Source of the DNA: a virus
Reading direction: 5' to 3' (one strand)
IMG/VR virus record: IMGVR_UViG_3300006749_000051
Span: 1 to 33,761 of that record
Length of the DNA stretch: 33,761 nt
A program made the translations under genes and the position numbers. The notes beneath the pieces are model-generated. The model saw only the letters and a list, made by a program, of their open reading frames with translations. It ran no database searches and was not told the DNA's origin. Shown piece after piece: positions 11,674 to 17,048 of the stretch (positions within the stretch are counted from its first letter, which is position 1; each line of letters opens with the position of its first letter).

Positions 11674-11850
11674 TTATCTGGTTATAAATAATAATTGTTC
11701 TTGTCTCTTAGCATATCTTCCAGATGGTGGTCTGGATGCTAACATTCTGCGCTTTGCTTCCTTCAAAATACGCAGGTGCTGAATGGATTTTGGCCCATCG
11801 TAATCGAATGCTTTTGTTCTTAATCTGTTAACTAGTTTTTGGTAATTCAT
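11674..11850 (-). CDS. small basic hypothetical protein (58 aa)
   Basis: Begins MNYQKLVNRLRTKAFDYDG and ends SGRYAKRQEQLLFITR; Arg/Lys-rich, likely helical. It was identified as an open frame directly downstream of the first copy of the 63-nt RNA element, whose end lies 15 bp before this ATG. The 133-aa gene starts 10 bp beyond its stop. Function unknown. Confidence 0.6.
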   Translation of the reverse strand: MNYQKLVNRLRTKAFDYDGPKSIQHLRILKEAKRRMLASRPPSGRYAKRQEQLLFITR

Positions 11851-11864
11851 AACGTTTTATTTTT

Positions 11865-11927
11865 GGTTAAGACATCCCCGATTCACATCGGTAATGTTTC
11901 GGATAATGAATCCATCTTCAGTTAACC
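11865..11927 (-). ncRNA. structured RNA leader element, copy 1
   Basis: Read on the minus strand, the 63-nt element is closed by GGTTAA/TTAACC. Inside are two hairpins: GGAT-TCATT-ATCC, and a longer one with ACAT/ATGT at the base and CCGAT-GTGA-ATCGG at the tip, where GTGA is a GNRA tetraloop. It begins at the stop codon of the upstream gene and ends 14 bp before the next ATG. Copy 2 at 12247-12309 differs at six positions, four of which keep base pairing. There is no T-tract, so it is not a simple terminator; a cis-regulatory leader is inferred. Confidence 0.65.
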
Positions 11928-12232
11928 TATATAAACCAATCGTCTGGAATCTCCATGTCTGATGGTGCAAGATATAATCCTTCGTTTTCTAATACCTTGT
12001 AAATCTTACCATCCAAAATAAATTCCTCTGTGCATAATCCTTCTGCCCAGATATCAAAATAATGCTCGTCTTTATATGGATTTCCATCTATTAATGATTC
12101 ATAACTAACGATGTTTGTCTGTCTTACCAGATGTGGTAAATACATCTTTGCAAATATCACATAGGAATATACACCATGATGTGAATCTACAACATGCAAT
12201 AATTCGTCTTGATTAAATTTTCTGATTGTCAT
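11927..12232 (-). CDS. hypothetical phage protein (101 aa)
   Basis: Contains DSHHGVYSYVIFAKMYLPHL and an acidic C-terminus ending PDDWFI; I recall similar short proteins in other phages, with no known function. It lies between the two copies of the RNA element: copy 2 forms its leader and its stop overlaps the start of copy 1. Confidence 0.7.
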   Translation of the reverse strand: MTIRKFNQDELLHVVDSHHGVYSYVIFAKMYLPHLVRQTNIVSYESLIDGNPYKDEHYFDIWAEGLCTEEFILDGKIYKVLENEGLYLAPSDMEIPDDWFI

Positions 12233-12246
12233 AACATTTTATTTTT

Positions 12247-12309
12247 GGTTAAGATACCCACGATTCACATCGGTAGTATTTCGGATATTGAATCCATCTT
12301 CAGTTAACC
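12247..12309 (-). ncRNA. structured RNA leader element, copy 2
   Basis: Same 63-nt plan as copy 1: GGTTAA/TTAACC closing stem, GGAT-TCAAT-ATCC hairpin, and a GTGA-capped hairpin whose basal stem is ATAC/GTAT instead of ACAT/ATGT. The basal stem therefore shows two compensatory pair changes. One pair in the upper stem is lost (ATCGT for ATCGG). It starts on the stop codon of the 56-aa gene and ends 14 bp before the ATG of the 101-aa gene, and the match continues through AAAAATAAAA to the ATG. Confidence 0.65.
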
Positions 12310-12474
12310 TTCCTTGATTTTACTTGTTAGTTTTTGAAATTCATCCCATTCCGCAGTGTTTTCAATTTCAACGAATGGATTATTACCGATTAACTTTTTG
12401 TGCAATTTAAGGTATCTTAAACCTTCTTTTTGCGTTATTTTATTCTCTCTAATTGCTTTAAGTATTCTGTTCAT
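12304..12474 (-). CDS. small basic hypothetical protein (56 aa)
   Basis: Begins MNRILKAIRENKITQKEGL; helical and Lys-rich with an acidic patch near the end. A longer reading from 12534 is open, but it overlaps the upstream gene by 49 bp; the ATG at 12474, 11 bp after that gene's stop, is the natural start. The 'RENKITQKEGLRYLK' pattern resembles a small helix-turn-helix-like unit, not enough for a call. Confidence 0.6.
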   Translation of the reverse strand: MNRILKAIRENKITQKEGLRYLKLHKKLIGNNPFVEIENTAEWDEFQKLTSKIKEG

Positions 12475-14577: not shown

Positions 14578-14608
14578 TTTCAATCCTATTCATTTTTTCT
14601 TACCTTTG
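14578..14608 (+). promoter_or_regulatory. Bacteroidetes-type promoter of the groEL operon
   Basis: A -7 box TACCTTTG (14601-14608) is preceded at 19 bp by TTTC (14578-14581), one base off the TTTG consensus. The ATG of groEL lies 21 bp downstream. The tandem TCGACAT repeat sits just upstream of the -33 box, so a regulator bound there could control it. Confidence 0.65.
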
Positions 14609-14629
14609 ACCAAATCAAATCCAATACAT

Positions 14630-16243
14630 ATGAATCCATCAGGTTACAATCCTAAAGACCTAATCTTCGATGACGTTGCCAGGGGCAAGTTGATAGCGGG
14701 GATAGAGAAAATCGCAAAAGCAGTAAAGAGTACACTCGGCCCTATGGGTCAGACTGTATTAGTTGAATCACCGGAGCATACCCATTCGGTTACAGTTACC
14801 AAGGACGGTGTGACTGTTGCCAAGAGTATTGACCTCTTAGATCCTGTCGAGAACCTTGCGGTTAGAATAATGAAGGATGCCGCGAAGAGTACAGCGAGTA
14901 GTGCTGGTGATGGCACGACCACAGCAATTGTGTTGGCAGAAGCGATAGCTACCCTTGGTCTAAATGAGGAGAGTCTTCGAGACTATGACAAGACTGAGGT
15001 GATACGTCACATTCAAAAGTGGACAGACGCTACCATCAAGCGATTAACTACAATGAGTAAAAAGTTAACAAAGTCTAAGATGCGAGACGTTGCTACAATC
15101 TCTGCGAACAATGACAAGGAGATAGGTGAATTGATAACTGACGCATATACTCAGGTTGGTGTTGATGGGATAGTTACTGTTGAGAAGTCAATGACTGAGG
15201 AGACATACTCTGAGGTTACCCATGGTATCAAGATAGACCGGGGGTATAGTTCAAACCTATTCGTCAACAATCAAAAGAAGGACGAGTGCATCATGGAGAA
15301 TGTATATGTGATGATGACCGATCATCCCATTGAGAACATACTACAGATTGAAGGTATACTGAAACCAATCGTTGAGAACCGAGCTGCATTACTAATCATT
15401 GGAAACTGCTCTCAGGGTGTCACCAATACCTTGGCTGCAAATGTGGTGAAGAACGGATTGAAATTTTGTAGCGTGATGCCACCACAGTTTGGGTACAAAT
15501 CTCATGAGCTGATGAGCGACATGGCGGTGGCACTAGGTGGGAAATATTTCCAGGAGGGTATGGGTGATGACCTCAGCCTTATGACCATCGATGACCTTGG
15601 TGTAGCATCAAAGGTGATAGTGGGTACAGACTCAACTGTCATCATCCGGGAATCTGAGAAGGACGATGCGGTGATAGATAGAGTAAAAGAGTTGGAGGTG
15701 CAATACACCAACACCACTACTCCCAACGAGAAGAAATTTATCAAGGAGCGTATTGCCTGTTTGAATGGTGGGATAGGTGTGATATATGTTGGGGGTAACT
15801 CTGACGTAGAGCAAAAAGAAAAATTTGACCGCATCGATGATGCGGTGTGTGCTGTTAGATCAGCACAAGAAGAGGGGATTGTTGCCGGGGGAGGCTTGGC
15901 ACTATTTGAGTGTTCCGAACATTTAGCTTCAGCACTTCCTACATTCTCAGGAGCAGAGTCTCAGGCGATGGAGATATTAATGGAGGCGTATCAAGCACCC
16001 TTACGTCAGATATTAGAGAACGCTGGCAAAGACCCCAACGAGGTGATAAGCTATATCATCTACAAAGACTCCAACACAGGATACAATTTAAAGACTGGTG
16101 AGTATGGCGATATGTTCAAGATGGGCGTTGTCGATCCATTGAAGGTTACAAAGAACGCATTAAAAAATGCGGTGAGTGTTGCCACCACAATCCTAAGTAC
16201 TAATGCCATTGTGACGATGGCCCGATCATACGAGACGAAATGA
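14630..16243 (+). CDS. groEL: phage-encoded GroEL chaperonin (Hsp60)
   Basis: 537 aa from the ATG at 14630. A TTG eight codons upstream is in frame but lies inside the -7 promoter box, so it is rejected. Equatorial signatures are intact: KSTLGPMG (33-40), KDGVTVAK (58-65), and the ATP-binding GDGTTT (93-98). The catalytic Asp near 404 lies in RIDDAVCAVRSA, followed by EEGIVAGGG. The apical domain is divergent (FVNNQKKDE) and the C-terminus ends SYETK, with no GGM tail. It should form ATP-driven folding chambers, probably tuned to a phage protein such as the capsid. A phage GroES lies downstream. Confidence 0.96.
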   Translation: MNPSGYNPKDLIFDDVARGKLIAGIEKIAKAVKSTLGPMGQTVLVESPEHTHSVTVTKDGVTVAKSIDLLDPVENLAVRIMKDAAKSTASSAGDGTTTAIVLAEAIATLGLNEESLRDYDKTEVIRHIQKWTDATIKRLTTMSKKLTKSKMRDVATISANNDKEIGELITDAYTQVGVDGIVTVEKSMTEETYSEVTHGIKIDRGYSSNLFVNNQKKDECIMENVYVMMTDHPIENILQIEGILKPIVENRAALLIIGNCSQGVTNTLAANVVKNGLKFCSVMPPQFGYKSHELMSDMAVALGGKYFQEGMGDDLSLMTIDDLGVASKVIVGTDSTVIIRESEKDDAVIDRVKELEVQYTNTTTPNEKKFIKERIACLNGGIGVIYVGGNSDVEQKEKFDRIDDAVCAVRSAQEEGIVAGGGLALFECSEHLASALPTFSGAESQAMEILMEAYQAPLRQILENAGKDPNEVISYIIYKDSNTGYNLKTGEYGDMFKMGVVDPLKVTKNALKNAVSVATTILSTNAIVTMARSYETK

Positions 16244-16601: not shown

Positions 16602-17048
16602 ATGAGTAGTCTGTACATTGTTCCTATAAAGCAAAGAGAAGCTAAAGATTTTATAAACAAAAATCACCGCCATCATAAAGCACCTGTTGGAAGCATATTT
16701 CAAATTGCAGTTGCTAAAGATAAAAACATTGTTGGTGTAGCTATGGTTGGAAGACCTGTCTCTAGAAATCTAGACAACGGTTGGACGTTAGAAGTAAATA
16801 GACTTTGTACTGATGGAACAAGAAATGCATGTTCAATGTTGTACAGTGCTAGCTGGAGAGTTGCAAAAAACTTAGGATACAAAAAACTAATAACATATAT
16901 TTTAAAATCTGAGTCAGGTGTCAGTCTTAAAGCATCAGGATGGAAACTTATCGGTGAAGCAGGAGGTGGGAGCTGGAATAAAAAATCTAGACCCAGAGTT
17001 GATAAACATTCCACTCAGTTAAAATTAAAATTTGAAAAATCAATTTGA
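16602..17048 (+). CDS. GNAT-like XF1762-type protein
   Basis: 148 aa. The string VGVAMVGRPVSRNLD, then LEVNRLCTDGTRNACSMLY and WRVAKNLGYKKLITYIL, then SGVSLKASGWKLIGEAGGGSW, matches the XF1762-type family of phage and plasmid proteins with an acetyltransferase-like (GNAT) fold. The substrate is unknown; distant resemblance to the Mu Mom DNA-modifying GNAT fold is possible but is inference. It lies between GroEL and GroES genes and looks more A-rich than its neighbours, which suggests a later insertion. Confidence 0.82.
   Translation: MSSLYIVPIKQREAKDFINKNHRHHKAPVGSIFQIAVAKDKNIVGVAMVGRPVSRNLDNGWTLEVNRLCTDGTRNACSMLYSASWRVAKNLGYKKLITYILKSESGVSLKASGWKLIGEAGGGSWNKKSRPRVDKHSTQLKLKFEKSI

Follow-up and report, generated by a model that had tools for sequence, protein, structure and literature searches.

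Probable type I hammerhead ribozymes in the gaps between small genes of a phage and their relatives in other phages

The DNA analysed here (the window; 33,761 nucleotides, IMG/VR virus record IMGVR_UViG_3300006749_000051) carries a set of small genes upstream of a replication module, and because of this position the genes considered below are presumably early. In two of the gaps between them, on the minus strand of 11864-12310, lie two copies of a 63-nt element (Table 1). A sequence-only reading of the window had located both copies correctly, with their ends 14 bp short of the next ATG. It had also held that each copy starts on the stop codon of the preceding gene, which is true of copy B, whose first base (11927) overlaps a TAG by one base, but not of copy A, which starts at 12309 and has its stop, TAA, within GGTTAA. 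The plus strand encodes a GroEL-like chaperonin at 14606-16243 (225 bits to Pfam Cpn60_TCP1) and, beside it at 16602-17048, a protein that matches the DNA-modification family Mom (42.8 bits to Pfam PF25680). A tRNA search of the window found none. Terminators were considered and rejected, with 5 matches against 3 expected and a single overlap with a stem III hairpin, on the opposite strand.

Table 1. Predicted ribozyme features in the window, numbered from its first nucleotide
Feature	Position	Strand	Basis or remark
Copy A, predicted type I hammerhead ribozyme	12247..12309	-	core, stems and NUH site in register; model R2 60.4 bits, E 4.2e-14
Copy A, location	between ORFs 12304-12474 and 11927-12232	-	sequence
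Copy A, stem I 5' strand GGTTAA	12304..12309	-	pairs with 12252-12247 (sequence)
Stop codon TAA of the ORF upstream of copy A	12306-12304	-	inside the GGTTAA strand
Copy A, catalytic core CTGAAGA (C3 U4 G5 A6 N7 G8 A9)	12297..12303	-	sequence
Copy A, extra T after core	12296	-	sequence
Copy A, stem II GGAT-TCAAT-ATCC	12283..12295	-	sequence, fold; stem II covaries in relatives
Copy A, GAA (12282-12280) and stem III from A15.1 (12279) to U16.1 (12254)	12254..12282	-	GTGA tetraloop at tip
Copy A, basal stem III pairs ATAC/GTAT	within 12254..12282	-	compensatory changes relative to copy B
Copy A, predicted cut following C17 (12253) of the AUC triplet	12252..12253	-	inferred from hammerhead anatomy
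Copy A, TTAACC (3' strand of stem I), with which the downstream mRNA is predicted to begin	12247..12252	-	sequence
Copy B, predicted type I hammerhead ribozyme	11865..11927	-	core and stems in register; model R2 60.5 bits, E 4e-14
Copy B, location	between ORFs 11927-12232 and 11674-11850	-	sequence
Copy B, catalytic core CTGAAGA	11915..11921	-	extra T after core at 11914
Copy B, stem II GGAT-TCATT-ATCC	11901..11913	-	sequence, fold
Copy B, GAA (11900-11898) and stem III from A15.1 (11897) to U16.1 (11872)	11872..11900	-	basal pairs ACAT/ATGT
Copy B, predicted cut following C17 (11871) of the GUC triplet	11870..11871	-	inferred from hammerhead anatomy
382-nt RNA expected from double cleavage	11871..12252	-	20-nt leader, 101-aa ORF 12232-11927, 5' part of copy B

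Judged by their sequence, the two copies are almost certainly type I hammerhead ribozymes. Read 5' to 3', each consists of GGUUAA, CUGAAGA, an extra U, GGAU-loop-AUCC, GAA, an A15.1 that opens stem III, U16.1, C17 and UUAACC. Both have the features of the hammerhead class, namely the core C3 U4 G5 A6 N7 G8 A9 with G12 A13 A14, three stems, the A15.1-U16.1 pair and an H at position 17 (triplets AUC and GUC), and their sequence order and fold, with stem I open and stems II and III closed as hairpins, give the type I topology. The earlier view that the element resembles nothing named was thus in error. From the conserved core, the element is predicted to cleave itself. The six differences between the copies (copy positions 22, 32, 34, 50, 53 and 55) are as previously described: positions 32/55 and 34/53 form two compensatory swaps at the base of stem III, C-G to U-A and U-A to C-G, position 22 lies in loop II, and the difference at position 50 disrupts one upper stem III pair. 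The two swaps fall on pairs 15.2-16.2 and 15.4-16.4, places where hammerheads may vary freely.

The pattern CTGANGA..GAAA..TCTTAACC matched twice in the window and not at all in 100 shuffles. Model R2, a covariance model built from 95 relatives with the window left out, returned exactly the two copies at 60 bits each (E about 4e-14) and nothing more up to E = 5. An Rfam scan of the window, both at the gathering cutoff and up to E 10, found no ribozyme, and at gathering cutoffs Rfam found no hammerhead in 14 ribozyme-bearing loci; since 0/14 reached these cutoffs, such ribozymes are probably unannotated in phage genomes. One relative, a member with stem II GUCC, reached 30.2 bits (E = 6e-6) against RF00163 Hammerhead_1, slightly below the curated cutoff of 34. 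Folding energy by itself was not decisive as proof of the element. The minimum energy fold of copy B is the hammerhead fold and that of copy A lacks stem III, while the folding energies of the two copies against shuffles gave z = -1.89 and -1.07, with 10/200 and 26/200 shuffles folding equally well. The comparison with shuffled copies that had been proposed earlier is therefore passed only weakly, and it is outweighed by the comparative evidence.

That evidence comes from relatives in viral contigs. In a first pattern scan, which prescribed the core and the GGAU of stem II and nothing else, stem I, stem III and the NUH site were in register in 133 of the 150 distinct pattern matches, among the matches listed. 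When the sequences downstream of these 150 were shuffled, a mean of 1.2 and a maximum of 4 full hammerheads arose; dealing the real downstream sequences among the matches gave 19, because some stem I sequences, chiefly GGTTAA, are common. Some pattern matches, for which the full descriptor failed, were discarded as chance. With a descriptor leaving all stems free, the fetched loci (2.07 Mb) yielded 344 full hammerheads and a Markov-1 control yielded none; the count of 344 is not a prevalence, as the loci were themselves chosen with the motif. Over 83 model hits, the single-stranded catalytic core is almost invariant and the stems change by compensation, the covariation score of the three helices being 0.687 as against 0.152 when shuffled, in an alignment that was fitted to the structure and hence leans towards it. 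Selection on RNA structure, which had been argued from the two copies, is strongly supported by the covariation of all three helices, and the relatives, in which a loss of pairing was to count against it, have kept their pairing.

These hammerheads form a compact subfamily. Among the matches listed, stem I is exactly 6 bp in 128/133 and has an A on either side in almost every case, and stem II has 4 bp with a conserved UNANU-like loop; the flanking A's and this loop suggest a possible tertiary contact between the periphery of stem I and loop II. An extra base after A9, nearly always U, occurs in 54/344 members as well as in both window copies, whose cleavage it may slow. Position 17 is nearly always H, both in the 344 members found by descriptor and in the model hits (81/82). 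In four members C3 and G8 are replaced by U3 and A8, a core covariation reported by Perreault et al. in 2011 (PMC3088659); rarer variants, of kinds also mentioned there, are U4C in one copy and a non-pairing 10.1-11.1 in 3/81 distinct rows.

The position of these hammerheads relative to genes is regular. It was assessed on 329 hammerheads with enough flank, and the percentages are approximate because ORFs were called by a simple rule and part of the loci belong to phages that are related to each other. In 89% of the 329 versus 13% of random places, an upstream stop codon ends at most 25 nt from the 5' edge; in 88% versus 18%, an ORF of at least 35 aa begins no more than 45 nt downstream; both hold in 80% versus 3%, and only 1% lie inside a long ORF versus 21%. 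The downstream start codon stands about 11 to 40 nt from the ribozyme, and the most frequent positions of the upstream stop lie inside the ribozyme, namely the TAA of GGUUAA, the TGA of CUGA, a TAG at the edge and the TAA of loop II. The hammerheads separate co-directional genes, with copies on the same strand in 70/72 multi-copy loci at a median spacing of 526 nt. Whole records hold 1 to 14 copies; the richest (L066) has 14 in 6.3 kb and another (L085) has 8 in 2.9 kb, nearly all of them in gene gaps. A conserved gene partner was sought and rejected, as the small proteins tested from the two gaps match no PHROG or Pfam family; for three of them viral contigs contained no close relative, and for one the more distant relatives mostly lack an adjoining ribozyme core.

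The best overall explanation, to which we give a probability of about three in four, is that the hammerheads cut a polycistronic early transcript in the gaps between small genes, and their role is probably the processing of this transcript into single-gene mRNAs. Among the roles offered by the sequence-only reading (leader, processing site, translation enhancer), the processing site fits best. As a gap is transcribed, stems I, II and III would fold and the core would cut after C17 co-transcriptionally, in the window at 12253|12252 (AUC) and 11871|11870 (GUC); given these two cuts and the ORF between the copies, the 382-nt RNA would be released. The hairpins of stems II and III, with a 2',3'-cyclic phosphate, would form the end of the upstream mRNA, and the downstream mRNA would start with 5'-OH-UUAACCA, 20 nt ahead of its start codon. 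Because the upstream ORF ends on or within the 5' border of the ribozyme, a terminating ribosome would meet the fold without crossing it, and the embedded stop could couple cleavage to termination. The likely benefit would be that one long early message becomes several, each covering a single gene and having a short leader of standard form, a 3' end protected by hairpins and a 5'-OH, which may make the cleaved mRNAs more stable. Hammerheads clustered in prophages have been shown to cleave both in vitro and in E. coli, and for them the processing of prophage messages into single-gene mRNAs was proposed in 2011 (PMC3088659).

Other readings have to be weighed against cleavage in the gaps. A structured leader or translation enhancer without catalysis would agree with the closeness to the start codon and with the only modestly better folding of the window copies than of shuffles, but it is very improbable, given that the single-stranded positions relevant to catalysis are almost invariant in the 83 model hits, that position 17 is held to H and that the U3-A8 swap compensates within the core. 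We also think it unlikely that the elements are selfish or recombination-prone repeats that travel with exchangeable small genes and whose cleavage gains the phage little. Their patchiness among close relatives, their absence where the small-gene region differs and their lack of a tie to any particular gene family are what such repeats would show, whereas the intact core, the very exact placement relative to stop and start codons and stems that diverge by compensation, and are not kept as identical repeats, speak against them. Regulation of cleavage by a ligand, a protein or translation, which would make the ribozyme a genetic switch and not constitutive scissors, is unlikely. The stop codon within the 5' strand could link folding to the passage of ribosomes, and in 19/344 members GAAA and C17 stand more than 50 nt apart, in some because of inserts that several phages have in common; however, stem III is short and plain in most members, the window copies included (median 21 nt), and the loci scanned with Rfam showed no riboswitch.

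The matching of stem I between neighbours raises a further alternative. In 47 loci of the first scan, which were not selected on stem I, the likeness of stem I within a locus is 0.845, compared with 0.589 when labels are shuffled, and the share of the possible within-locus excess is 62% for stem I, 30% for stem III and 3% for stem II. Stem I is identical despite a diverged stem III in 46% of within-locus pairs versus 13% between loci. Such matching could come from shared descent, from stop-codon needs or from a functional match between neighbours. In the last case, the 5' UUAACC of an excised RNA might pair with the GGUUAA near its own 3' end to rebuild a hammerhead, and the ribozyme or an RtcB-type ligase would then close a circular single-gene mRNA. 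Stem I is identical in the two window copies, and the tandem type I hammerheads of animal retrozymes do make circles (PMC7761336). Even so, several records have mixed stem I types, recent duplication could explain the likeness, and Perreault et al. detected neither splicing nor circles with the tandem hammerheads of prophages (PMC3088659); we consider such rejoining improbable. If true, whole sets of early phage genes would be expressed from circular mRNAs via a genome-specific stem I.

The subfamily stands close to several known systems. With RF00163 Hammerhead_1 it shares the order of the stems, the CUGANGA...GAA core, the A15.1-U16.1 pair, the NUH site and the open stem I, but the scores fall short of that family as described above, and the subfamily differs in its unbulged 6-bp A-flanked stem I, 4-bp stem II, UNANU-like loop and the frequent extra U. 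The prophage hammerheads of Perreault et al. 2011 (PMC3088659) are similar in that several same-strand copies flank single phage genes of varying identity, but they appear to differ in that the type I subfamily here is uniform, with up to 14 copies per record and a stop inside the ribozyme. ArdA genes lie near some of those prophage hammerheads and near some subfamily members too, where anti-restriction genes of this kind occur a few kb from the hammerhead in Pelagibacter phage Jormungand (L146) and Cellulophaga phage phi18:3 (L349). HHphage of haloviruses HF1 and HF2 stands 13 nt upstream of the start codon of an early gene, and the 5' end of the transcript maps at most three nt from the hammerhead cut (PMC3088659). 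However, HHphage has insertions near C3 and stem I and needs high salt, whereas the subfamily keeps C3 and has its insertion after A9. The RAGATH-1 hammerhead, RF03152, has the type I order, and two subfamily loci score against it (L007 at 24.8 bits, L132 at 20.8 bits), but far from its cutoff of 56.3; its model has an extra 5' hairpin and another stem II, and in the window it has no match. Plant and animal retrozymes also carry tandem hammerheads a few hundred nt apart and yield 5'-OH and cyclic phosphate ends (PMC7761336), but the unit between the window copies is a protein-coding ORF of a DNA phage and not a non-coding repeat, which sets it apart from retrozymes.

Phage hammerheads, the type I topology and the clustered arrangement are already known. 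What is new is the compact subfamily, its large scale, its recurrence from one gene to the next, the stop codon that it contains and the frequent extra U after A9, together with the matching of stem I within genomes and the named cultured phages that carry the subfamily. We found no description of it in the open-access literature; subscription papers and supplementary alignments lay largely outside this search, so parts of it may sit unnamed in published hammerhead lists. The function of hammerheads in bacteria and phages has been described as an open question (PMC6155905). To this question the subfamily, with a ribozyme in successive gene gaps, a built-in stop and a nearby start, offers a clear and testable answer, and the cultured carriers make it testable in living infections.

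By its large terminase, the phage of the window groups with Cellulophaga phages, with 46% identity to the Flavobacterium elemo phages and 73% to an uncultured podovirus. Model hits occur in the cultured phages elemoA, elemoB, elemoC and elemoE, Cellulophaga phi19:3 and phi18:3, Methylophilales MEP301 and Pelagibacter Jormungand, one copy in each. When the window copy itself served as the blastn query against cultured phages, the matches did not rise above chance level; a relative and the model were needed to find them. The ribozymes of elemoC and elemoE are nearly the same save for stem II, GGUU/AACC in the one and GACU/AGUC in the other, which by its sequence is a compensatory change between close relatives. 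RefSeq places a small hypothetical protein antisense to the elemo ribozyme (NC_062743.1 16937-17044, NC_055854.1 16289-16396), which is probably not a real gene. Among the 50 records that share the primase of the window, 5 have the element; it therefore appears dispensable and its distribution patchy, following the variable small-gene regions. The nearest relative, whose primase is 96% identical, shares the replication module and only short pieces of the small-gene region; it has other small genes at that position and no ribozyme.

In some members stem III has long inserts common to different phages (L126:2369-2416, L129:2469-2542, L125:1068-1120, L090 and L022). Two examples are GAGCTACCATGCAGAGCGTGGGGGTAC, which precedes a 299-aa gene, and TTAGGAGAAACCAAC; such inserts could serve the ribozyme as domains for sensing or for binding a protein. 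A second hammerhead-like form has a stem I of CACGS/SCGTG and a conserved structured 3' extension, GAGTCTCCC..GGGGAATAACTGGAGACCTAGAC (L004:355, L017, L075:541). In a 14-copy cluster, an apparent second, degenerate hammerhead lies within a stem III loop (L123:1686-1833), as if one had been inserted into another.
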